Origin: Parvularculaceae bacterium
GTDB taxonomy: Bacteria; Pseudomonadota; Alphaproteobacteria; Caulobacterales; Parvularculaceae
Assembly (NCBI GenBank): GCA_028280115.1
Contig: JANQMJ010000024.1
Span: 1 to 64,000 of the forward strand
Direction: 5' to 3'
DNA: 64,000 bases
The position numbers and the translations under genes are program-made. Below the pieces are notes generated by a model. That model worked only from the letters and a program-made list of their open reading frames with translations, ran no database searches and was not told the DNA's origin. This document shows, one piece after another, positions 18,819 through 57,301 of the stretch (position 1 is the first letter of the stretch; every line of letters begins with the position of its first letter).

Positions 18819-18892
18819 GGCCACGTGGCGGAGTGGTTACGCAGCGGCCTGCAAAGCCGTGTACGCCGGTTCGATTCCGGCCGTGGCCTCCA
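18819..18892 (+). tRNA. tRNA-Cys (GCA)
   Basis: A 74-base cloverleaf. The acceptor GGCCACG (18819-18825) pairs with CGTGGCC (18882-18888), with discriminator T and encoded CCA. The anticodon GCA is at 18851-18853 in the loop CTGCAAA, and the T arm GTTCGATTCC is present. A small CCCCG-CAAAT-CGGGG hairpin follows directly and may help end transcription. Confidence 0.97.
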
Positions 18893-19133
18893 CCCCGCAA
18901 ATCGGGGCGAAGAATAGCCTTTTTAACGCTTTTTAAGACGGAAAACCGGCGCAATTGCGGGGCCTTGGGGCGCCAAAGCCTCACATTTTAACTATGATGT
19001 TATGATATGCCCGTAGGGATTGGGGGAGGCTGTCCCGGTGCATTCATCGCATTCGCCGAACCGCCCGCCGAATAACGCTTGCGGACGCAGCAGCACGCCG
19101 ACAAGTAACGCAGGGTCATATAAGAGGGGCCAC

Positions 19134-20618
19134 ATGCATTCCGCCTGTCGCGTAAATAAGAAAGTCAAGCTGCTCGGCGCTGCGGCGCTGTCCGTGCTGG
19201 CTGCGTCCTGCGCCAGCATCGACAAGTCGCTGCTCGAAGCCCAGGTCCCTGAACCGCCCTCGGCATGGGCCGCCGATGACGGCGCCGCCGCGCCGCCGAC
19301 CGGCGATTGGGTCGCTTCGTTCGACGATGACGTGCTGCGCAGTCTGATCGACGATGCGCTGTCCCATAACAACCAGTTGCTGGCGTCGGCGGCGAGCTTC
19401 GATCAGGCGCGCGCGAGTTCGCGCATCGCGCTGGCGGATTTGCTGCCGCAACTGGGCGCCAACTTTAATGCTTCGCGCAACGCCATTGTGACGAGTCCCA
19501 CGACGGCGGCGCAGGCCGGCGGCGGCGGCGGCGCAAGCGATCGCATTTACATCAACAATTTCTTCCTCGGCGGACAGCTTTCCTGGGAGATCGACCTTTG
19601 GGGCCGGCTGACCGACCAGACCCGCGCAGCCTATCGCGATGCGCGCGCGGCTTATGCGGACCTGTCCGGCGCACAGCTGTCGCTGGCGGCGCGGGTGGCG
19701 CAAGCCTGGTTCACCCTGATCGAAGCGCGCCAGCAGCGCGAACTCGCCGAACGCGACGTGGTCGCCCGCGAAAGCAATCTGCGGGTCACGGACCGCCGGT
19801 ATGAGCGCGGCGTCGCCTCCAGCCTCGATGTCAGGCTGTCGCGATCAGCGCTCGCTTCAAGCCAGGCCAATCTGGCGCTGCGTCAGCGCATCGAAAAAGA
19901 ATCCTCCCGGCGCATCGAAGTGCTGCTCGGCCGATATCCCGCTGCGGAAATGCAAGCAGCCGCGTCCCTGCCCGAACTGCCGCCGCTTGAAGGCGCCGGC
20001 GCGCCCGGCGACATCCTCGCCCGGCGTCCCGACCTGATCGCCGCCGAGGCGCGCATGGAAGCGGCCGGCCTGCGCGCACGCGCCGCGCGCAAGCAACTCT
20101 TGCCGCAGATCACGCTGACCTCGCAGATCAACTCGTCGGGACCGGAGATCGCCGATCTTATCGATCCCGAACGCCTGGCGGGCAATCTCGCAGGCGGTCT
20201 GTTCCAGCCCCTGTTCCAGGGCGGCCGCCTGATCGCCAACGCCAAGCGCGCCCGCGCGGCCGCTGAAACCGCGCTTTATAATTACGCCGAAACCGTGCTG
20301 ACCGCTTATGAAGAGGCGGAAAACGCGCTGGGCGCGGAATCGCTGCTGGCGGCCCAGGAAAGCGCGCTCCGCGTCGCTTTTGAAGAAGCCGCCGCGGCCG
20401 AGGCGCTTACCGAACGCCGTTACGCCAGCGGGGCGGCGACGATTTTCAATCTACTGGACGCCCAAACCCGTCGTATTTCGGCGGAGAGCCAATATATCCA
20501 GGCCCAACAGCAACGGGTGTCCAATCGGGTGCAGCTCTATCTCGCCATCGGGGGCGATTTTCTGACCGAGGCCAGATTGGCCGCGCTGCAAACGGAGATC
20601 CAGGGGACACAAGAGTAG
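19134..20618 (+). CDS. RND efflux outer-membrane lipoprotein (NodT/OprM type)
   Basis: The ATG at 19134 follows a GAGGGG ribosome-binding site and gives 494 residues; the upstream 38 codons are not part of the protein. The signal peptide ends at a lipobox (LAASC). It has the two tandem outer-membrane efflux repeats, including the family feature APGDILARRPDLIAAEARM in the middle. It forms the trimeric outer-membrane channel for the pump encoded next: the adaptor gene starts five bases after its stop. Drug or metal range cannot be inferred. Confidence 0.93.
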   Translation: MHSACRVNKKVKLLGAAALSVLAASCASIDKSLLEAQVPEPPSAWAADDGAAAPPTGDWVASFDDDVLRSLIDDALSHNNQLLASAASFDQARASSRIALADLLPQLGANFNASRNAIVTSPTTAAQAGGGGGASDRIYINNFFLGGQLSWEIDLWGRLTDQTRAAYRDARAAYADLSGAQLSLAARVAQAWFTLIEARQQRELAERDVVARESNLRVTDRRYERGVASSLDVRLSRSALASSQANLALRQRIEKESSRRIEVLLGRYPAAEMQAAASLPELPPLEGAGAPGDILARRPDLIAAEARMEAAGLRARAARKQLLPQITLTSQINSSGPEIADLIDPERLAGNLAGGLFQPLFQGGRLIANAKRARAAAETALYNYAETVLTAYEEAENALGAESLLAAQESALRVAFEEAAAAEALTERRYASGAATIFNLLDAQTRRISAESQYIQAQQQRVSNRVQLYLAIGGDFLTEARLAALQTEIQGTQE

Positions 20619-20622
20619 CGTC

Positions 20623-21816
20623 ATGTTTCGCAAGTTTTTAACTCTGTTCGGCACGATCGGGATTCTGGTCGGCGGCGTCGCGCTGATCATGCTCATGGGC
20701 TCACTGCGGCCGAAAATCGAACCCAAAGAACCGGAGATCATCCCGCCCACGGTGTTTTTTACGGTTGCGGAAAGCCGGGCCGTTACGCTTGATGTCATGG
20801 CCCAGGGCGAAGTGCGCCCGCGCACCGATATCGCCCTGACCGCGCAAGTTTCGGGGCAGGTCGTCTCAACCTCCAAAGCCTTCGTCAATGGCGGCGCCTT
20901 TGAAGAAGGCGATGTGCTCATTCAAATCCAGGATGCGCCCTATCGCGCGGCGGCGGCGGCGGCGCGCGCAAGGCTGGCGCAGGAAGAAGCCGAAGCCGCC
21001 CTTGCCCGCAGGGACTATGAAGAGCTCGGCCTTGAAGAGGATCCGACGGACCTGGCCTTGCGTCTGCCGCAACTCGAGCAGGCCCGGGCCGAATATGAAG
21101 CGGCGCGACTGGACCTTGAACGAACAACCATACGCGCGCCGTTCAAGGGCCGCGTGCGCGAACGCATCGCCGGCGTCGGCCAATATGTGGCGCCCGGCGC
21201 CCAGCTCGGGCAGATCTTTTCGACAGACATCGCCGAGATCCGTCTCGCGCTGACCGACGCCGATCTTGCAAAGCTCGGCCTGCCGATCGCCTTTGTCGAA
21301 GACGAGGATACGCCGGGACCCGATGTGGTGTTGTCCGCCGTGATCGCCGGCAAGGAACATACCTGGCGCGGCCGCGTCGCGCGGACCGACGGCGCCGTCG
21401 ATCCTACGACGCGGCAAATCTTCGCGATCGCCGTGGTCGACGATCCTTACGGCGCCGGCGCCGCCGCGGACGGCACGCCGCTGGCCATGGGCCTGTTCGT
21501 GGACGCGCGGATTTCCGGCAGTCCCTATGACGACGCCATCGTCCTGCCGCGGTCGGCGCTTTACGGCCGCGACGTGGTCTATGTCATCGCCGAGGGCGAC
21601 ATGCTTCAGGAGCGCACCGTAACGGTGATCTCCGCCGAACGGGACGCCATCACGATCACCCGCGGCGTCGAGCCGGGCGAACGGGTCGTCATTTCCCCGT
21701 TGCGCGGCGCCGGCGACGGCGACAAGGTGACGCCGACCAGCCCGACCGCGCTGACGGCGACTGTCAGCGTTGCCGATAGCGGGGCGGACGCGGCCGGCTC
21801 GGGAGAAAATCGGTGA
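20623..21816 (+). CDS. RND efflux periplasmic adaptor subunit (membrane fusion protein)
   Basis: The protein has 397 residues: an N-terminal membrane anchor (LFGTIGILVGGVALIMLM), a split lipoyl/barrel-sandwich domain (around PRTDIALTAQVSGQVV and TIRAPFKGRVRERIAGVGQYV), a helical hairpin between them, a beta-barrel and a membrane-proximal domain. It bridges the inner-membrane pump and the outer-membrane channel. It overlaps the permease gene by four bases (ATGA-type coupling, GTG start of the next gene). The C-terminal 30 residues are low complexity. Confidence 0.93.
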   Translation: MFRKFLTLFGTIGILVGGVALIMLMGSLRPKIEPKEPEIIPPTVFFTVAESRAVTLDVMAQGEVRPRTDIALTAQVSGQVVSTSKAFVNGGAFEEGDVLIQIQDAPYRAAAAAARARLAQEEAEAALARRDYEELGLEEDPTDLALRLPQLEQARAEYEAARLDLERTTIRAPFKGRVRERIAGVGQYVAPGAQLGQIFSTDIAEIRLALTDADLAKLGLPIAFVEDEDTPGPDVVLSAVIAGKEHTWRGRVARTDGAVDPTTRQIFAIAVVDDPYGAGAAADGTPLAMGLFVDARISGSPYDDAIVLPRSALYGRDVVYVIAEGDMLQERTVTVISAERDAITITRGVEPGERVVISPLRGAGDGDKVTPTSPTALTATVSVADSGADAAGSGENR

Positions 21817-24800
21817 ACGGAATCATCACATGGTGGGCGCGCAACAACGTCGCCGCCAATCTACTGATGATCGCGTGCATCATTGGCGGCGCGATTGCTT
21901 TCCTGCGCCTTGAGCGCGAGGTTTTTCCGTCCGCCGATTTCAACGGCGCAACGGTCAGCGTTGCATGGCCAGGCGCCTCGCCGCGGGAAATCGAAGAACA
22001 GATCATCCTGCGGATCGAAGAGGCGGTCGCCGACATCGACGGCGTCGAACATATTGACGCAACCGCGCGCGAAGGCGCGGCCACGATCAATGTCGAAGGC
22101 GAAGACACGATCGACGCGACGCGTTTCCTCAACGACATCAAGAACCGCATCGACGGCATTTCGACCCTGCCGCAAGACGCTTTCCCGCCGGTGGTTGCGC
22201 AATGGCGCAACGAAGGCGGCGCGGTCTACATGGCGGTCTATGGCGATCTGACCGAGCGCGAACTCAACCGGCTGGCGCGGGATCTGCGCGACGATGTCGC
22301 CCAACTGCCCGACGGTTCGCCCCTGGTCAATTTGTGGGGCCAGTCGCGCGAAGAAGTTTCCATCGAGGTTTCCGAAGAAGCATTGCGCCGCTATGGGCTG
22401 ACCTTTGACGACGTGGCGCGCGCGATTCGCGGATCGTCGCTGAACATCGCCGCCGGTCAGGTGCGCACCGAAACCGGCAACATTCAGGTCGCTGCGCGCG
22501 CGCTTGCCGACACCGAAGCGGAATTCGGCCGGATCGTGGTCCGCCAAAATCCGGACGGTTCGATCTTGCGGGTGCGCGACGTCGCGAAAGTCGTCGACGG
22601 GTTTGAAGACCGCAAGCAAAAGCGCGAACTCAACGGCAAACCGTCGATTTCGATCGCGGTGAACGCGCCGGAAAAGCTCAACATCGTCAAACTGTCAAAG
22701 GCCGTAAACGGCTGGGTCGCGGAAAAGAACGAGGAGCTTGCGGGCAAGGCCGAAATCTATGTCTGGTTCGATACGGCCGATCTTTATTTCGCGCGCATGG
22801 AACTGGTGTCGTCGAACGGGCTTATCGGCCTTTTGTTGGTGACGATCATTCTTTTGCTGTTCCTGCGGCCGGCCGTAGCGTTCTGGGTCGGCGTCGGCAT
22901 CGCCGTTTCGTTCGCCGGCGCGTTCATTTTCATGCCGGTGACCGGCGTGTCGCTGAACATGCTGTCCCTGTTCGCCTTCCTCCTGGTGATCGGGGTCGTG
23001 GTCGACGACGCGATCATTGTCGGCGAAAGCATCCATAATCAGACCGAAGAGGGCCATACCGGCGTCGATGCAGCGATCTTGGGCACGCAGCTTGTCGCCA
23101 AGCCCGTCCTGTTCGCGGTGTTGACGACCATGATTGCGTTTCTGCCCTGGCTGTTCATGTCCGGCGGCACGGCGCAATTTACAAAACACATTACGCTGAC
23201 GGTTATTTTTGCGCTGGCGTTTTCGCTTATTGAATCGTTCTTTATTCTGCCGTCGCATCTGTCGCACATGAAAAAGCAGAACCGCGAGGGCGTCTATTAC
23301 CGGCTGCAGGGCGTGTTTGCGGACGGCCTGTTGACAGTCGCGAGAACCGTTTATGGGCCGCTGATCAGGCTCGCCCTGCGGTTTCGCTATTTCACCGTCG
23401 CCGGCTTCATCGTGGCGTTCGCAACGGCGACGGCCTTGCTCGCACAGGGCTGGATTTCCTTCAAGTTCATGCCGGAGGTTCAGGGCACGTTTATCTCGAT
23501 GACCGTTCGCCTGCCCGAGGGCGCGGCGTTTTCTCGCTCGCTTCAGATCTTCGACGAAGTTGAAGCGGCCGCCGAACGGCTGAAGCAAACCAAGGGCCAG
23601 GTCGACGGCATAGATTTCGTGCAGTCGGTCTATATCCGCGCCGACGAGACGCAGGTCGTTTCGTTTGTCACCATCATCCCGGCCGATAAACGCAAGGAAT
23701 CGACCCAGGATGTCGCCGAAGAATTCCGCAGCCTGCTTTCGGATATTCCCGACGCCGAAGAAATCAACATCACCTACACGGTCAACAATCAGGGCCCCGA
23801 TTTTGAATTCGGAATCGAGTCCGACGATCTGGAGGAGCTGCGCATTGCAACGCTTGACGTGCAAAATTATCTGCGCACCCTGCCCGGCGTTTATGACGTT
23901 CGCAACAATCTTCAGTCCGAAACGCCCGAACTCCAGCTTAAGCTCAAACCCGGCGCGGAACGCTTCGGCCTGACGCTCGGCGAAGTCTCAAGGCAGGTCC
24001 GCCAGGCGTTTTACGGCGAGGAAGTCCAGCGCCTGCCCCGCGAAGGCCAGGATGTCCGCGTCATGGTTCGCTATCCCGCGTCGGATCGCCAATCCCTGAC
24101 TACCATCGAGAGCATGCGCGTGCGCACCGCCGACGGCCGCGAAGTGCCGCTGACCGCCGTCGCCGACGCCGAGTTCGCGCCGAGCTTTAAGCGCATCGAG
24201 CGGCGCGACCGCACGCGCTCGGCGCGCATTACCGCCGAGGCCAGGGAAAATGTCGACCGTGCGGCGATCTTGAAACTCTTCCGCGAGGAATTCGTCCCGG
24301 ACTGGAAGCAGCGCCACCCCAACGTCAATCTCGCCGAACGCGGCGACGCGGAGGCCCAGGCGGAGTTCCTCCTGGAATTCCTCTCGCTTTACGCCGTGGC
24401 GCTGTTCGCCATGTATATGTTGCTGGCGATCGCGTTCAGTTCCTATTGGGAGCCGATCCTGGTGATGTGCGCGATCCCCTTCGGCTTCATGGGCGCGGCG
24501 TTTGGGCATCTGATTTTCGGGCTGGAGTTTGCGCTGTTTTCGTTTTTCGGGGTCGGTGCGGCGGCGGGGGTCGTCGTCAACGACAATCTGGTGCTGATCG
24601 ATCTGGTCAACCGGCTGCGCGCCAAGGGCGAAGGCGCTTTCGCCGCGCTGGTAAAAGCCGGCGTTGCGCGTTTCCGGCCGATTTTGCTGACCTCGGTGAC
24701 GACCTTCGTCGGCTTGCTGCCGATTATGTTCGAACGATCGACGGAAGCGCAGTTCCTGATGCCGACCGTGGTCTCACTCGCCTGGGGCGTCTTCTTCGCC

Positions 24801-25010
24801 CTCTTTGTGACCTTGTTCTTCGTGCCGGCGATGTACGCCGTGGGCGCGGATATTTCACGGTTCTATCGCTGGGCGTGGACCGGCGAAAAGCAGCCTGCAG
24901 TCGGCCAAGGCCGTCCGCTGGAGGATCGAATCGGCGATTCGGCGCGGCCCCAGACCGACCTTTCCGGCCGGGAACGGCGTCGTAACCCGCTCTGGGACCC
25001 GGCTGAGTAA
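21813..25010 (+). CDS. RND efflux permease (AcrB/HAE1-like)
   Basis: A 1065-residue transporter starting with GTG, overlapping the adaptor gene. It has twelve membrane segments in two halves, each with a large periplasmic loop. TM4 contains GVVVDDAIIVGE, the acidic proton-relay position of the family, and TM10 contains GVVVNDNLVLIDLV. The C-terminus is a hydrophilic tail (RPQTDLSGRERRRNPLWDPAE). It exports drugs, metals or lipophilic compounds using the proton gradient. The second-half motif has Asn-Asp instead of Asn-Asn/Asp variants, as in many members that resemble the triclosan-type alphaproteobacterial pumps; the substrate is unknown. Confidence 0.94.
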   Translation: MNGIITWWARNNVAANLLMIACIIGGAIAFLRLEREVFPSADFNGATVSVAWPGASPREIEEQIILRIEEAVADIDGVEHIDATAREGAATINVEGEDTIDATRFLNDIKNRIDGISTLPQDAFPPVVAQWRNEGGAVYMAVYGDLTERELNRLARDLRDDVAQLPDGSPLVNLWGQSREEVSIEVSEEALRRYGLTFDDVARAIRGSSLNIAAGQVRTETGNIQVAARALADTEAEFGRIVVRQNPDGSILRVRDVAKVVDGFEDRKQKRELNGKPSISIAVNAPEKLNIVKLSKAVNGWVAEKNEELAGKAEIYVWFDTADLYFARMELVSSNGLIGLLLVTIILLLFLRPAVAFWVGVGIAVSFAGAFIFMPVTGVSLNMLSLFAFLLVIGVVVDDAIIVGESIHNQTEEGHTGVDAAILGTQLVAKPVLFAVLTTMIAFLPWLFMSGGTAQFTKHITLTVIFALAFSLIESFFILPSHLSHMKKQNREGVYYRLQGVFADGLLTVARTVYGPLIRLALRFRYFTVAGFIVAFATATALLAQGWISFKFMPEVQGTFISMTVRLPEGAAFSRSLQIFDEVEAAAERLKQTKGQVDGIDFVQSVYIRADETQVVSFVTIIPADKRKESTQDVAEEFRSLLSDIPDAEEINITYTVNNQGPDFEFGIESDDLEELRIATLDVQNYLRTLPGVYDVRNNLQSETPELQLKLKPGAERFGLTLGEVSRQVRQAFYGEEVQRLPREGQDVRVMVRYPASDRQSLTTIESMRVRTADGREVPLTAVADAEFAPSFKRIERRDRTRSARITAEARENVDRAAILKLFREEFVPDWKQRHPNVNLAERGDAEAQAEFLLEFLSLYAVALFAMYMLLAIAFSSYWEPILVMCAIPFGFMGAAFGHLIFGLEFALFSFFGVGAAAGVVVNDNLVLIDLVNRLRAKGEGAFAALVKAGVARFRPILLTSVTTFVGLLPIMFERSTEAQFLMPTVVSLAWGVFFALFVTLFFVPAMYAVGADISRFYRWAWTGEKQPAVGQGRPLEDRIGDSARPQTDLSGRERRRNPLWDPAE

Positions 25011-25024
25011 GAAAAGCCGATCCG

Positions 25025-25039
25025 TTAACCTTATGTTAA
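25025..25039. promoter_or_regulatory. CtrA-type binding box TTAA-N7-TTAA
   Basis: TTAACCTTATGTTAA is a perfect match to the full CtrA site of Caulobacter-like bacteria (two TTAA halves 7 bases apart). It lies 15 bases after the stop of the RND permease gene and about 25 bases before a strong hairpin series ending in a terminator, so it could activate a short transcript. A further TTAA half is at 25055-25058. Function is inferred from the consensus only. Confidence 0.55.
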
Positions 25040-25063
25040 TATCTTTCTGAGAGGTTAAGAGGG

Positions 25064-25147
25064 TCTTCTCCCGAGAAGATACCCCACCATACCCCACGAC
25101 AGTGAGTACCGGCCGCGTTCCCCCCAAGGCGCGGCCGTCTCGCTTTT
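25064..25147 (+). ncRNA. Candidate small RNA with C-rich unpaired segments
   Basis: Downstream of the CtrA-type box comes a compact hairpin (TCTTCT-CCCG-AGAAGA, 25064-25079), then an unpaired stretch with repeated ACCCCAC words (25081-25098), then a rho-independent terminator whose loop holds CCCCCC. No reading frame of note is present. C-rich loops that pair with ribosome-binding sites are common in bacterial small RNAs. The 5' end is not known; it is set here at the first hairpin. It could instead be only the 3' end of the efflux transcript. Confidence 0.35.
25110..25147 (+). terminator. Rho-independent terminator after the RND operon / candidate small RNA
   Basis: CGGCCGCG (25110-25117) pairs with CGCGGCCG (25130-25137) across a C-rich loop and is followed by TCTCGCTTTT. 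Confidence 0.75.
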
Positions 25148-25255
25148 ATGGCCCGCCGGTCCCCGCCAGGCTCGCTGCAGCTAGGCTGATTCGGCCTTAA
25201 AAGATGGTGGATTCGCCACCGACCCTTTGCTATATCCGCCGCTCTTAAAAGCTGT

Positions 25256-25331
25256 TCCCCGGTAGCTCAGTTGGTAGAGCAAGCGGCTGTTAACCGCTGG
25301 GTCGCTGGTTCGAGTCCGGCCCGGGGAGCCA
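25256..25331 (+). tRNA. tRNA-Asn (GTT)
   Basis: A 76-base cloverleaf. The acceptor TCCCCGG (25256-25262) pairs with CCGGGGA (25321-25327), with discriminator G and encoded CCA. The anticodon GTT is at 25289-25291 and the T arm GTTCGAGTCC is present. The AT-rich AbiE module begins about 150 bases downstream, so this tRNA may be the landing site of a small island. Confidence 0.97.
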
Positions 25332-25478: not shown

Positions 25479-26339
25479 TCACGACAGAAGCGTGTTCACA
25501 ATCTTGTCCAACTTGGATTCGAAAAACCGGCTGCCCCAAAGCTTCAGAGATTCCACTTCCGTGGGGCGCAAGAAACGAATGACGTCTTTTTTAGCCTCGT
25601 TCCAATCAATTGACTGAATGCGTTTGGTCATTTCGGTTTGGAGCCACTCTACATTCACGGCAAGTGTTTCATCGTGCGCCCAAGGGCCGAATTGACGTAG
25701 AGCCGCTTCCAGGTGCGGCAAATTCGGAAAAATTCCTTTAGCAGCGTACCAAGAGAAATCGTACCAATCGCGCCCCTTTAAAAATTTCCGGCACAGCAAT
25801 GCGTGAATTTTTAGCGCAAAATTCGACGCCAAATCCTGATGCCTGATCTCAAAATCAACCGGAAAATCGAGATACGTGAATTCATCATTCGAATGACCGG
25901 GCGGTTCAACATCGATTTCCAGTTTGATTTTCAGGAGTTTCCGAGAATCTCTTTTTCCAAATGACAAATCCAGCTGGTTGACGATCGAATTATCCTTAAT
26001 GACCGCGTTACGGATGCGCTTGTCCATTTGCTCTTTGGAGATCGCTTCGGGCTGCAGGCCATATTCTTCAAATGTTTGCGTAAGAACATTTAGAAAAGGC
26101 GCCCAGTCGAATTTCGGATCAGACGCCAACAACATGAAGTCCAGGTCTTCAGAAAACCGCGGCAGTTTGTGAAGAATGCGCAAGCTGGTGCCGCCCTGGA
26201 AAACAGCAACCTCAAAAAACTTTGCTCGCCAGAGACCATAGAGCGCGATCTCCTGGATAATCTCTTTGGTCGCGTTCTCAACTTCAACATCATTGGCAGG
26301 TTTGTAACTGGCCAATCGGGCCTGAATAATCTCATTCAT
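25479..26339 (-). CDS. abiEii: AbiEii/AbiGii-type nucleotidyltransferase toxin
   Basis: A 286-residue protein with the DUF1814 nucleotidyltransferase signature: GGTSL (49-53), then RFSEDLDF (61-68), which supplies the catalytic acids, and a later KIHALLCRKFLKGRDWYDF segment typical of the family. Type IV AbiE toxins block growth by modifying tRNA or otherwise using NTPs and give phage abortive infection. The start is two bases after the stop of the antitoxin gene, so they form one operon. Base composition is clearly more AT-rich than the flanks, which supports horizontal transfer. It ends about 150 bases from tRNA-Asn. Confidence 0.9.
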   Translation of the reverse strand: MNEIIQARLASYKPANDVEVENATKEIIQEIALYGLWRAKFFEVAVFQGGTSLRILHKLPRFSEDLDFMLLASDPKFDWAPFLNVLTQTFEEYGLQPEAISKEQMDKRIRNAVIKDNSIVNQLDLSFGKRDSRKLLKIKLEIDVEPPGHSNDEFTYLDFPVDFEIRHQDLASNFALKIHALLCRKFLKGRDWYDFSWYAAKGIFPNLPHLEAALRQFGPWAHDETLAVNVEWLQTEMTKRIQSIDWNEAKKDVIRFLRPTEVESLKLWGSRFFESKLDKIVNTLLS

Positions 26340-26341
26340 TG

Positions 26342-27028
26342 CTATGATCTTTTCCGCGTCGGCGCCTTACTTGATTTTAAGGCACGGACGTCACGTTCGA
26401 ACCGGGACAAAAATTCGTTGACGGCTTTGTGCTTATAAACGCCACGCAAATCCGAAAAGTTTTTCGGACGAATCTGAACAAGGTGCGCTTTGCCAATCCG
26501 CATTCCGTTTTCAAGCCAAGCAACGCCTTGCCAGTCCTGCTTCCGAAAGGCGACCAAGTCCATGAACGCCCGCAGAGGTGACGCCACGAGCATCGCTTGA
26601 TCGCTGATGACGTGCCGCTGGACTCCCGCAAGGAAACCTGATTTGTGAAGCGCCAACGGATTGAATTCGAAATTGCCAAAATTCGGATGGTTGAGGACTT
26701 GGGATTTTCGGCCCGGCGTCACGCTGACGGTTGTGTAAACGGCCTCTGGAATCCAGCCATGAAAAGACAGCGCCGTTTCCATGGAAACATAGCTGCCTGG
26801 GACCAGCACCTGAGCAAGCGCAAAGGGATGAAGAGCGTGTTCACGGTACTGCTCAGCCAGAACATAAAAACCGCGTTTGATCCGAACGAGCGCTCCCGAC
26901 TGCAAGGCGCGCTTTACCTGGCCATAGCGCCGGTCATCGCTGCCGCCCAGGATGCGCCCAATTTGCTGATCGTTCAGGATCCGATCCGCGTAACCGGCGC
27001 TTTTAACTTGTGAAATCAAGGCGCTCAT
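26342..27028 (-). CDS. abiEi: AbiEi-family antitoxin / transcriptional autorepressor
   Basis: A 228-residue protein. The N-terminal winged helix includes LNDQQIGRILGGSDDRRYGQ and GALVRIKRGFYVL; the C-terminal antitoxin domain starts at SYVSMETALSFHGWIPEAV. AbiEi proteins neutralise AbiEii without direct binding (type IV) and repress their own promoter by binding inverted repeats. A 37-base palindrome lies directly upstream of the start (27032-27068). The composition is AT-rich, like the toxin gene. Confidence 0.9.
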   Translation of the reverse strand: MSALISQVKSAGYADRILNDQQIGRILGGSDDRRYGQVKRALQSGALVRIKRGFYVLAEQYREHALHPFALAQVLVPGSYVSMETALSFHGWIPEAVYTTVSVTPGRKSQVLNHPNFGNFEFNPLALHKSGFLAGVQRHVISDQAMLVASPLRAFMDLVAFRKQDWQGVAWLENGMRIGKAHLVQIRPKNFSDLRGVYKHKAVNEFLSRFERDVRALKSSKAPTRKRS

Positions 27029-27318: not shown

Positions 27319-29685
27319 TTAAAAAGCAAAGCCGCTCCTGACGACAATGGTCGTCAATCCCGGCGCGCCGGTTCCGCTGAATGTCTGGTGCAGCAAATTA
27401 ACGTCGAGCGCGGCGCCGTCGATAGCGTAAAGCCGATAGCCGGCCTCGAAATCGAAACGGCGGCCGGCGGGCGCGAGCGAGGTCGTCACCGGCGAAAAGA
27501 TCAAGGTCTCGGTCGTTTTGTCGAACGCCGTCGGCAAGGTCAGCCGCAGGCTGCCGGTTTCGACCAGCAGGGGCTGGCTGACGCCGATCCATAAGCTGTC
27601 GCCGGGGCTCAACAATGTGTCGCGAACCAGCGCGGCGGAAAACTGGGTCGTCGTCAGATTTGAAAACCCGTCGACGAATTCGCCGAGTCCTGTAGTGTCC
27701 GCCATGGTGTAACCGGCGGCGTAACGCCCCTTCAGCCGCCAATGCGGCGCCAGCGCCACATCCGCCTGCGCCGCGCCGTAAACCGTCGTCGCGGATGTTG
27801 CTCCGCTGAAGCGCGCATCGAGCACGGCGCCGTCCTCGCGTCGCACACCCTGTTCGAAACGAAGCCGAACATCGCCCATGCGCCAGTTGAGACCCGCGCG
27901 CGCCGCCGACGCGCGCCGCCCATCGGTTTGCCCATTAGCCGATGCCAGAGAAGCGGATGTCAGGGAAAACGCATCGTCGTTCCCATAGGCGTAAGTCATC
28001 AGGAAATCGGCGCTTAAACGCGGCGTCAGCGCCGCGCGCAGTATGGTCGTGAACGCATCCTGGGACTGCGGCAGATAAGCGTCGGCAAAGGCGCTTTGGC
28101 TCAGAAACGGGGTCTGACGCATGGGCTCGGTCATGCGGTCGACAGCGGCGGGCGAAAAGCCCTGCGCGGCGGTCAGGTTGCGCCCGGCGCCCAAATCGCC
28201 GGTCAAGGCGAGCGCGAGGTCGTCGTCGATCACATCGTTTTGCGCTTCGGCGCCGGCGAAACCGGCGATCCGGTTGGCGTCAAGATCGGTGAGCGCGCGG
28301 TCGCGCGAGGTGAGCCGGAACGTCGCGCTCAGCCGTCTGCCGAACGGTTGCGACGCATAAAGATGGCGGCCGAAGGGATTGAAAGTCGCTTCAATGTCGA
28401 AGCGATCCGGTGCCGCAACGCCGATATATGCGCCAAGGTCGGCTTTAAAATCGCGGCCATATCGGTCGAACACGACAATGTCGCCGATCTGCCCAAGGCT
28501 GGCGCCGAATGCGGGCCCCAGCGCGGCGGAAATGTCGGAGATTTCCGTCGTCGTCCCGTTGACGCTGGTGGTCGTGACCGAACCGAGCGGCGCCACCGCG
28601 GCGCCGACATTTAAAAGGCCGCGGCCGTATATCGGATCGGTTCCCGGCGTTCCGAGATCCGTCGCGCTGTCGAGCAGGATTTCAACGACCTCCTCGGCGG
28701 TTAACTGCGGCCATAATCCGCGGATCAGCGCGGCCGCGCCGGCGATATGCGGCACGGCGGCGCTGGTGCCGGAAAAGAAATCCGTCTGGCCGCTCGGCGT
28801 ATCGATGCGGACGGTCGGGATCAACACGCCCGGCGCAACCAGGAAAATATCCGCCGCAACGCCGGCGCGGTTGGAAAACGCCGCGATGACATTGCTGGAA
28901 TCGACCGCCCCCGCGATGATCGTCGCCGGCGCGCCGGCGACATCGAGCGCGCCCAGCGCCGATTCTTCCGGATCGTTTCCGCTTTCATTGCCGGCCGCGG
29001 CGACCGACACGATGTCGTTGGCCTTTGTAAAATCGAAAACCGTTTGAAAATCCGCGCGCGCCGCCAGTTCGTTCGATCCCAGCGAAAGGTTGAGCACGTC
29101 CGCGCCGATAGACGCCGACCGGTTGACCCCTTCCGCGATCGCTTCGCCCAGGATCGTCTCATCGTCGGCCTCGGTGTCGCCGCGGAATATCAGCAGCGAC
29201 GTCGACGGGGCCACGCCGTGGATGGACGAGTTGTTTTTGTTCGCGCCGATAATGCTGGCGACGGGCGTGCCGTGATCGTCTTCATCCTGAAGGTTCGGTC
29301 CGCCGGGGCGCAGTTCGCCGGGCGGGACAATGCCGGGCGCCACGAGGTCGGCGCTGTCCGGATGAATGCGGCCGGTAAATTCCGGATTGTTCACATCGAT
29401 GCCCGTGTCGATAATCGAAACAATCGTCCCCTGCCCCAGTCCGCCTTCCTCATAGGCGGGGATGACGTTGATCCGGTTGAGCCCGGGCTGATTGCGATAT
29501 TCGACCGTATTAAAATTCTCCGGGGGCGGCGGCGGAGGCGGCGACGGAGGAGGAGGCGGCGAGGGCGGCGACGGCGGCATGACCACCGGGGGCGGCGCGG
29601 GACTGTCGCTTGCGCATCCGCATAACGCCACACCCGCGCTGATAAAAATTACCTTTACAAGACGACTTATGGCCCCGACCCTCAT
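27319..29685 (-). CDS. Lipidated subtilisin-like autotransporter (NalP/SphB1-like S8 protease)
   Basis: A 788-residue protein with a lipoprotein signal (lipobox LCGC, Cys24), then a proline-rich spacer (about 30-55), a subtilase domain (about 65-365) and a C-terminal beta-barrel ending in GFAF. The catalytic triad is Asp93 (DTGID), His138 (HGTPVA) and Ser308 (SGTSAAVPH). Lipidation plus a subtilase passenger plus an autotransporter barrel is the design of NalP and SphB1, which process other surface proteins. No target gene lies beside it. Codon use matches the surrounding GC-rich genes, so it is not part of the AbiE island. Confidence 0.85.
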   Translation of the reverse strand: MRVGAISRLVKVIFISAGVALCGCASDSPAPPPVVMPPSPPSPPPPPSPPPPPPPENFNTVEYRNQPGLNRINVIPAYEEGGLGQGTIVSIIDTGIDVNNPEFTGRIHPDSADLVAPGIVPPGELRPGGPNLQDEDDHGTPVASIIGANKNNSSIHGVAPSTSLLIFRGDTEADDETILGEAIAEGVNRSASIGADVLNLSLGSNELAARADFQTVFDFTKANDIVSVAAAGNESGNDPEESALGALDVAGAPATIIAGAVDSSNVIAAFSNRAGVAADIFLVAPGVLIPTVRIDTPSGQTDFFSGTSAAVPHIAGAAALIRGLWPQLTAEEVVEILLDSATDLGTPGTDPIYGRGLLNVGAAVAPLGSVTTTSVNGTTTEISDISAALGPAFGASLGQIGDIVVFDRYGRDFKADLGAYIGVAAPDRFDIEATFNPFGRHLYASQPFGRRLSATFRLTSRDRALTDLDANRIAGFAGAEAQNDVIDDDLALALTGDLGAGRNLTAAQGFSPAAVDRMTEPMRQTPFLSQSAFADAYLPQSQDAFTTILRAALTPRLSADFLMTYAYGNDDAFSLTSASLASANGQTDGRRASAARAGLNWRMGDVRLRFEQGVRREDGAVLDARFSGATSATTVYGAAQADVALAPHWRLKGRYAAGYTMADTTGLGEFVDGFSNLTTTQFSAALVRDTLLSPGDSLWIGVSQPLLVETGSLRLTLPTAFDKTTETLIFSPVTTSLAPAGRRFDFEAGYRLYAIDGAALDVNLLHQTFSGTGAPGLTTIVVRSGFAF

Positions 29686-29799: not shown

Positions 29800-32085
29800 T
29801 TATGAATCTGGGCCGAATTTTTTCGAGGTCGGAAAGCCTTTCGGCGCGATCCGGCCCGCCTGGGCGCGCTTGCCCAGATAAGACTTCCAGTCGTCCACCG
29901 TCTGGATGCGCCCTGAACGGTCGGTCCAGGTCAGCCCTTCGGGCCCGGAAAACACCTTGGCGTCCGACAGGCCGCCTTTATGAAATTTCTGCAACACAAC
30001 GCCCTTTCCGCGCGACATTTCGGGCAGATCCGCGGCAGGAAAGACCAGGAACTTCTTGTTCTCGCCCACCGAGGCGACCATGAGGGTCTTGGCCGCGCCG
30101 GCGGGAACCGGCCGGCAGACCGCCGCCTCCGCGCCCGCCGGCGGATTGAGCACCTGCTTGCCCTTGCGCGTGGTGGAAAGGCAATCGCCTTCGGCGACAA
30201 TAAATCCGTGTCCGGACGAGGACGCGACCAGAAACTTACGGTCCCCGCGATAGATGAACGCGGCGACGACAGCGTCGTCATTGCCCATATCCGCCATCAG
30301 CCGGATCGGCTCGCCATGGCCGCGGCCGCCCGGCAGCGCGGCGACGTCGAGGGCGTAGAATTTTCCGTTGGTGGCGAACAGCATGAGCTTGTCTGTGGTC
30401 ATCGCCGGCACCAGAAAGCCCTGGCAGTCGCCTTCCTTGTATTTGATGCTTTTGGCGTCCTCCACATGGCCTTTCATGGTGCGCACCCAGCCCTTTTCGG
30501 AGATCACCGCTGTGACCGGTTCTTTTTCGACCAGAATATCAAGGTCGATCTCCTCGACATCGGGCGCATCGGCGATGTCGGTGCGCCGCCGGCCGATATC
30601 GCTCTTGGGATCGAAAACCTTGCGCACCTCGCGCAGTTCGTCGGCGATTTTCTTCCACTGCGCGTCGTCGGACTTCATCAGGGCCTTAAGCTGTCGTTGC
30701 TCGGCCTTGAGGTTCTTGTGTTCGGTCTTGATCTCCATTTCCTCAAGCTTGCGCAGCGACCGCAAACGCATGTTGAGGATCGCTTCGGCCTGCACGTCGC
30801 TGAGCTTGAAGGCTTTCATCAATGCCGCCTTGGGCTCGTCCTCATAGCGGATGATGCGGATCACCTCGTCGAGATTGAGATAGGCGATGAGGAAACCGTC
30901 GAGAATCTCAAGCCGGCGCGCGATCTTTTCAAGCCGGAACCTCGTGCGCCGGACCAGCACGTCCTTGCGGTGGGCGAGATAGGACTGCAAGACCTCGCGC
31001 AGGCCCATGACCCGCGGCGCGCCCCTGGCGTCAAGGACGTTCATGTTGAGCGAAAAGCGCGATTCCAGATCCGTCAGCTTAAAGACGGTCTCCATCAGGG
31101 CCGCGGGGTCCACATTGCCCGAGCGCGGCTCGAGGATGAGGCGGATGTCCTCCGCGCTTTCATCGCGCACATCGGCGACCGCCGGCAGTTTCTTCGCCTG
31201 GATGAGTTCGGCGATCTTTTCGATCAGCCGGGACTTTTGAACCTGATAGGGAATTTCCGTGATAACGATTTGATAGCGCCCACGCCCCAGATCCTCCCGC
31301 TCCCACCGCGCGCGAATGCGAAAGCCGCCGCGTCCCGTCGCATACGCCTCCTCCATGGAAGCGGCGTCCTCGACGCATAACCCGCCGGTGGGAAAGTCGG
31401 GCCCTTTGACGTATTTCAAGAGTGTTTCGGTGCGCGCGTTCGGCGCCTTGATGAGATGAAGCGACGCATCGATCAGTTCGGCGACATTGTGCGGCGGGAT
31501 GGACGTCGCCATGCCGACCGCGATGCCGCTGGCGCCGTTGGCCAGGAGGTTGGGAAACGCCGCCGGCAGGACGATCGGCTCCTTACTTTCGCCGTCATAG
31601 GTTTCGCGAAAATCGACGGTGTCTTCGTCGATGCCGTCGAGGAGAAGCTGCGCCGCCCTGGTCAGCCGGCTTTCGGTATAGCGCATCGCCGCGGCGTTAT
31701 CGCCGTCGATATTGCCGAAATTGCCCTGGCCGTCGATCAGCGGCACGCGCACGGAAAAATCCTGCACCAGGCGCACCATGGCGTCATAGATCGCCTGGTC
31801 ACCATGGGGATGGAAATTGCCCATCACCTCGCCGACGACTTTCGCCGATTTTTTAAAACCCCCGGCGGGAGCCAGCTTCATCTGACGCATGGCGTAGAGA
31901 ATGCGCCGATGCACGGGCTTGAGCCCGTCGCGCACATCGGGCAGCGCGCGCGCCGTGATGGTCGAGAGCGCATAGGCGAGATAGCGCTGGGAGAGCGCCT
32001 CGTTAAACGGTTCGAGAAAAATCTCTTCGGCGCGCGCCGGCCTGGCGGCTTTTGCGGATTTGGATTTCGATTTTGAACGGGCCAT
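29800..32085 (-). CDS. parC: DNA topoisomerase IV subunit A
   Basis: The protein has 761 residues from ATG 32085 (ATG 32097 adds four). The N-terminus is lysine-rich, followed by the breakage-reunion domain with catalytic Tyr136 in AAMRYTESR and the quinolone-region sequence [13 protein letters not shown]. The GyrA-box-less C-terminal pinwheel distinguishes ParC from GyrA. With ParE it unlinks replicated chromosomes. The gene stands alone, and the YIP1-like gene diverges from it 80 bases away. parE is not in the window. Confidence 0.96.
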
Positions 32086-32165
32086 GGGCGTTCCCATAGC
32101 AGAGTCTTAGCCCGCCGCCAGCTTTCCCTTTGCCGCAAGCGCCATATCCGCTATGGCGCTCGGCG

Positions 32166-56966: not shown

Positions 56967-56996
56967 TTGACAAAGGGAAAACTAGACCGGCACACT
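56967..56996 (+). promoter_or_regulatory. Candidate promoter of the riboswitch-btu operon
   Basis: TTGACA (56967-56972) is a perfect -35 element; CACACT (56991-56996) after 18 bases is a weak -10. The predicted start falls at the beginning of the riboswitch. Confidence 0.4.
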
Positions 56997-57001
56997 CTGC
57001 G

Positions 57002-57160
57002 CCAGACGGTGCCCTTAATCGGGCTTAATAGGGAATCCGGTGAAAATCCGGGACTGTTCCCGCAACTGTAAGCGGCGAGTTGCTGGCCGCGATCCACTGG
57101 AGCGCACGCTCTGGGAAGGAGGCCAGCCGCACTGACCCGCAAAGTCAGGAGACCTGCCGT
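57002..57160 (+). promoter_or_regulatory. Cobalamin (B12) riboswitch
   Basis: The leader before btuB contains the conserved cobalamin aptamer parts in order: CAGACGGTGCCC, GGGAATCCGGTGAAAATCC, ACTGTTCCCGCAACTGTAA, and the B12-box region AAGTCAGGAGACCTGCCG (ending near 57160). It binds adenosylcobalamin or a related corrinoid and lowers expression of the uptake genes. Between the aptamer and the btuB start, a CGGCCC-GCC-GGGCCG hairpin lies directly before the AAGGAG ribosome-binding site and may take part in translation control. Confidence 0.92.
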
Positions 57161-57301
57161 CGCGTCGCTCGTCCCGGGCCGGGCAAGCCATAGGGACAGG
57201 ACGAAGACTCCTTCGAAGCGACAATTCGTTGCGTGAAGTCCACTCGGGCCTTGCGCATGTCGTTCGCTGTTGCGGCCCGCCGGGCCGAAGGAGATCTTCA
57301 T

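Follow-up and report, generated by a model that had tools for sequence, protein, structure and literature searches.

The window analyzed here, a 64,000-nt stretch from a Marinicaulis-like genome of the family Parvularculaceae (order Caulobacterales), carries a small RNA (sRNA) gene between an RND efflux operon and a tRNA-Asn gene. The RND gene ends at 25010 and the sRNA unit begins 15 bp past its stop codon. Including its box for CtrA, a cell-cycle regulator, the sRNA gene spans 25025–25147 on the + strand, and it is present as a single copy in this genome. An earlier note on this DNA had described a perfect CtrA-type box, a tight hairpin, ACCCCAC repeats, a terminator and no reading frame, and had proposed an sRNA of about 80 bases between the RND operon and tRNA-Asn. 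A direct check of 25020–25150 agrees with that description, and both the sRNA and its place stand. Its length is corrected to ~85 nt (25063–25147, +; predicted +1 at 25063), as modeled by the covariance models R1 and R2 described below, and sequence comparison establishes the gene and these boundaries. Within the RNA, the + strand holds just one start codon (GTG, 32 codons) and no ATG or TTG. The sRNA thus has its own predicted promoter and terminator and no conserved reading frame, as expected of an independent gene. We consider it very likely that this single-copy sRNA gene is independent, is orthologous to the Caulobacter CC0196 RNA catalogued in Rfam, is activated by CtrA, and encodes an RNA that acts in trans by pairing.

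The RNA folds into two hairpins that flank an exposed C-rich stretch. The 100 nt after the box have a folding z-score of -3.7, and none of 200 shuffles folds equally well. The 5' hairpin GUCUUCU-CCCG-AGAAGAU (25063–25080, +) has seven pairs, including G25063-U25080, around the core TCTTCT-CCCG-AGAAGA at 25064–25079. It is followed by the unpaired C-rich stretch ACCCCACCAUACCCCACGACA (25081–25101, +), the proposed pairing region, with ACCCCAC copies at 25081–25087 and 25091–25097; UACCCCACCAUACCCCACGA lies unpaired between the 5' hairpin and the terminator hairpin. A terminator scan places the terminator hairpin and U-tract at 25102–25147 (+). This hairpin comprises an outer stem, GUGAG/CUCGC (25102–25106/25139–25143), and an inner stem (25110–25119/25128–25137) that closes the loop CCCCCCAA, and it ends in UUUU (25144–25147). 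Sequence and folding therefore bear out the hairpin, repeats, and terminator of the earlier note.

The sRNA is conserved across Caulobacterales and beyond. In a DNA search, most of the genomes in the genus and family proved to carry the segment. The relatives with names are Marinicaulis, Parvularcula, Amphiplicatus, and Aquisalinus (Parvularculaceae), plus Candidatus Phycosocius. Among genera, TCTTCTCCCGAGAAGATACCCCACCATACCCCACGACAGTGAGTA is nearly unchanged, and TTAA-N7-TTAA lies upstream in almost all cases. Covariance models were built stepwise, R1 from Parvularculaceae relatives and then R2. R1 matched loci in other families (E 1e-4 to 0.06) that carry a CtrA-type box, a GUCUUC...GAAGAC hairpin, ACCCCACCAU, and a terminator with a U-run. 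With R2, the RNA was detected in 172 of 200 Caulobacterales genomes (~86%), covering 40 of 41 genera, as well as in 15 genomes from six families outside the order (E ~1e-8 to 1e-10). Between families, CCCACCAU is nearly invariant. Thus, the box and hairpins are kept in relatives by both DNA and covariance-model searches, which the earlier note had named as a check on its proposal. Three weaker class-level model matches were discarded, and five model hits (L128, L135, L159, L160, and L161) were rejected, all for lack of the core.

Two cases stand out. One genome of the same genus (G016), 100% complete, yielded no sRNA by DNA or model search, though nearly all its relatives carry one; this would be either a true loss or an assembly gap. 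The metagenome-assembled genome JAADIH01 (M_MetaBat.34) holds two differing sRNA copies on two contigs (L079 and L105). Genome G024, which matches JAADIH01, shows 6% contamination and has two matching places (89% and 85% identity), and the two copies possibly reflect a mixed bin.

Comparison across loci also establishes that the structure is conserved. In the 5' hairpin, 95.6% of cells are paired and two of the seven pairs have changes on both sides, while compensatory change affects 8 of 10 pairs in the terminator inner stem. Over both helices, we counted 71 cells with both-side changes against 20.8 in shuffles, with far lower values in slid controls; the alignment was fitted to the structure, which biases these counts in its favor. 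Paired substitutions of the kind that the earlier note had looked to are therefore found in both hairpins. The conserved C-rich stretch has an unpaired probability of 0.99 in the genus and a mean of 0.81 over 109 loci.

The promoter layout of the sRNA fits that of a CtrA-activated gene. The full CtrA binding box TTAA-N7-TTAA, TTAACCTTATGTTAA (25025–25039, +), begins, at its 5' T, 38 nt ahead of the predicted start. It is the only such site in the 64-kb window, as against 0.08 expected from shuffles, and the whole 3.0 Mb genome has 26. Since R1 and R2 contain no upstream or promoter sequence, the layout at other loci is an independent test. An exact TTAA-N7-TTAA occurs within 70 nt upstream of the hairpin in 83 of ~120 distinct loci, compared with 0.28 loci in shuffled flanks, and its first base is invariably 38, 39, or 40 nt ahead of the hairpin in these 83. 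Among the same ~120, other spacings between 3 and 12 occur in one to four loci. A count made family by family took in 116 loci, from five families plus six outside the order; 111 have the box at the fixed position, exact or with one mismatch, as opposed to 0.6% of equally wide control windows further upstream. These loci are related by descent, so that the box counts are not independent events. A weak -10 element, xAxxxT, lies at 25051–25056 (+); of the 116 loci, 80% have A at -11 and 76% have T at -7.

Activating full CtrA sites in C. crescentus lie near -35, and the activating site of ctrA P2 starts at -39 (PMC4287350). By this analogy we predict +1 at 25063, so the first base of the hairpin is likely the transcription start. 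Relative to this predicted start, TTAA-N7-TTAA lies near -35, and its fixed distance of 38–40 nt from the 5' hairpin fits an activating CtrA promoter (PMC4287350), as the earlier note had supposed. In a stalked budding bacterium, the CtrA motif obtained by chromatin immunoprecipitation is TTAA-N7-TTAAC (PMC7200025). CtrA itself is encoded in the window's genome at G000:C18:149545-150216, with 85% identity to the CtrA query from C. crescentus, and the CtrA gene is present in 10 of 10 genomes tested, namely this genome and nine others.

Judged by place and architecture, the window gene is orthologous to the Caulobacter CC0196 RNA. Its kind is therefore already catalogued, and the gene is much older and wider than the entry suggests. 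The Rfam family RF01519 (‘Caulobacter sRNA CC0196’; gathering threshold 35 bits) matches the named control genome Caulobacter vibrioides and, at 95.2 bits, C. vibrioides-like orthologs in the same tRNA-Asn context. In other Caulobacter-like genomes it scores 41–66 bits at the syntenic place. R2 and RF01519 coincide, for example at G560:C1:1794221-1794289 versus 1794227-1794284, and the loci have in common the tRNA-Asn neighbor, CtrA box, hairpin, CCCACCAU, and terminator. In a search of the window against Rfam, at the cut-off and up to E 10, no sRNA family was found, and RF01519 did not match. RF01519 passes its cut-off in 20 of 200 order genomes, in at least one of which (family f4) it does so at a place other than the R2 match. 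On this comparison, the RF01519 model is tuned to Caulobacter and covers a small part of the real family. Both RNAs have the 5' hairpin, the CACCCACCAU stretch, the terminator, and the tRNA-Asn neighbor, whereas the window copy differs in its longer two-part terminator stem, its second ACCCCAC, and its perfect CtrA full box; in C. vibrioides-like genomes, one half of the box is perfect and the other degenerate.

Two C. vibrioides-like genomes (G140 and G560) carry the RNA ahead of a pair of tRNA-Asn genes, in the vicinity of popZ and valS. In G560 (L220:8222-12000), the sRNA and both tRNA-Asn genes lie ~3 kb upstream of popZ, the polar organizer gene, and valS. G131 (L141) likewise encodes a PopZ-like protein and valS close to the sRNA. 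The name popZ is our presumption, from recognizing the protein sequence. The label CC0196 suggests the gap between CCNA_00196 and CCNA_00197, where a 133-nt RNA, CCNA_R0004, has been reported (PMC6237742); the RF01519 match in G560 (L183/L184) is instead on the popZ side. This is either a naming or a rearrangement puzzle. A literature search returned no functional description of the CC0196 RNA, and a search for the exact core sequence gave nothing relevant. Landt et al. 2008 is reportedly the source of RF01519; its abstract is said to mention one sRNA apparently controlled by CtrA, which may be the present RNA.

These features suggest how the sRNA might work. Phosphorylated CtrA would bind TTAA-N7-TTAA, centered near -31, and activate transcription from ~25063, and RNA polymerase would halt at the terminator near 25147. 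Next to the fixed 5' hairpin, the unpaired CCCACCAU-containing stretch would most likely pair with G-rich stretches of target mRNAs, and this pairing would couple their translation or stability to CtrA activity. We infer CtrA activation in the cell, base pairing, the direction of regulation, and the targets; pairing with G-rich mRNA sites has been shown for GsrN (PMC5869019) and put forward for CcnA (PMC8959179).

Several observations weigh against this proposal. In a target search that covered exact 9–10-mer complements and the ctrA leader, a conserved target was not found: outside the RNA gene, exact ATGGTGGGGT seldom occurs, ATGGTGGGG sites yield no gene start common to genomes, and pairing with the ctrA 5' leader is no better than with shuffles. 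In family f4, the conserved stretch is less exposed, with a mean unpaired probability of 0.59. In the window's genus the U-tract is short, while most other lineages have a proper one, and in the C. vibrioides-like orthologs one half site is degenerate and the other perfect. One orthologous intergenic pair with ATGGTGGGGT/ATGGTGGGG complements (L254/L275) lies ~200 nt upstream of a gene and was not judged a target.

The RNA might instead bind a protein, sequester a factor, or sponge another RNA. The 5' hairpin is conserved in sequence, beyond structure alone, and CCCACCAU is nearly invariant, yet a conserved complementary mRNA site was not found. However, the target search spanned exact 9–10-mers only, and unpaired C-rich stretches of Caulobacter sRNAs do pair with G-rich mRNA sites (GsrN, PMC5869019; CcnA, PMC8959179). 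We regard a role of this kind as unlikely compared with pairing to mRNAs.

The neighborhood of the sRNA raises a different alternative, that the element belongs to a tRNA-Asn transcript as its 5' leader or attenuator, with CtrA driving tRNA-Asn and the hairpins processed away. Of 99 loci, 90 have a tRNA-Asn gene downstream in the same orientation, at a median of 164 nt from the core, and the weak U-tract in the window's genus would suit such a leader. Nevertheless, a terminator with a U-run separates the RNA from tRNA-Asn in most lineages. The RNA is also kept in two Caulobacteraceae loci where tRNA-Asn is on the opposite strand (L139 and L195) and in four loci with no tRNA-Asn in the 0.58–1.57 kb of downstream sequence covered (L016, L021, L194, and L218), which argues against a leader. 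Furthermore, an attenuator would have no need of the sequence conservation seen in the unpaired stretch. The leader explanation is thus quite improbable. That there is no gene at all, only a chance box and the RND operon's own terminator, as the 15 bp between the RND stop codon and the unit might suggest, has practically no probability and is already refuted, because four other families, and genomes outside the order, have the same unit of box, hairpin, C-rich stretch, and terminator but not the RND operon beside it. RND readthrough, which the earlier note had weighed, likewise does not account for the unit, since RNA and box persist with no RND operon upstream.

Other sRNAs resemble the trans-acting, CtrA-linked sRNA proposed here in part. 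CcnA (CCNA_R0094) of C. crescentus is also linked to CtrA, and its CCCC motif is proposed to pair with GGGG in 5' untranslated regions (PMC8959179). It differs in being 182 nt long and in lying inside the replication origin, not beside tRNA-Asn. Identity with CcnA was rejected based on length and neighbors (tRNA-Asn, and popZ/valS in C. vibrioides-like genomes). GsrN of C. crescentus, compared by description, likewise uses an exposed C-rich stretch to act on G-rich sites in mRNAs (PMC5869019). The alphaproteobacterial sRNAs alphaR8, MmgR, and SisA-D combine a weak hairpin with a pyrimidine-rich core that is unpaired and with a terminator (PMC12559287), but their core UUUCCUCCCU is absent from the present RNA. 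In addition, the sisA-D promoters have no common motif, whereas those of the present family do. The MmgR model RF00519 stays below its cut-off in the window and relatives. Among the sRNAs taken from papers, CcnA, EcpR1, ChvR, and SisA-D were rejected, as place, core sequence, or promoter does not fit.

Most noncoding RNAs of Caulobacter are reported not to be conserved outside Caulobacteraceae (PMC4117421). The present RNA occurs in ~86% of sampled Caulobacterales and beyond, with the box at a fixed distance. This suggests that CtrA control of the sRNA is ancestral. The sRNA is a specific candidate, easy to delete, for an output of the cell-cycle regulator CtrA at the post-transcriptional level. 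More tentatively, it might be a core, order-wide arm of the CtrA circuit, made in nearly invariant form whenever CtrA is active and tuning a conserved set of cell-cycle or polarity mRNAs post-transcriptionally in Caulobacterales and several related families; we give this somewhat less than an even chance. If true, current models of the CtrA network lack this layer.

In the window, the conserved downstream neighbor is tRNA-Asn(GTT) (25256–25331, +; ARAGORN). The apparently ancestral upstream neighbor, tRNA-Cys(GCA) (18819–18892, +), is now separated from the sRNA by the RND operon. Outside the order, 10 of 12 loci have a same-strand tRNA-Cys as their immediate upstream neighbor, as do 9 of 15 loci in family f4. 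The simplest reading of these arrangements is an ancestral order tRNA-Cys / sRNA / tRNA-Asn, into which the RND operon would have been inserted later. From 18819 to 25010 the window encodes tRNA-Cys, an outer-membrane factor, a membrane-fusion protein, and the RND permease. Directly 3' of tRNA-Asn lies an AbiEii toxin/AbiEi antitoxin pair (type IV toxin–antitoxin; 25479–27028, −), perhaps an insertion at tRNA-Asn. It is followed by genes for a subtilase-family protein with a long C-terminal part (27319–29685, −) and for topoisomerase IV subunit A (parC; 29800–32097, −). A cobalamin riboswitch is found at 56991–57175 (+; 120.5 bits).
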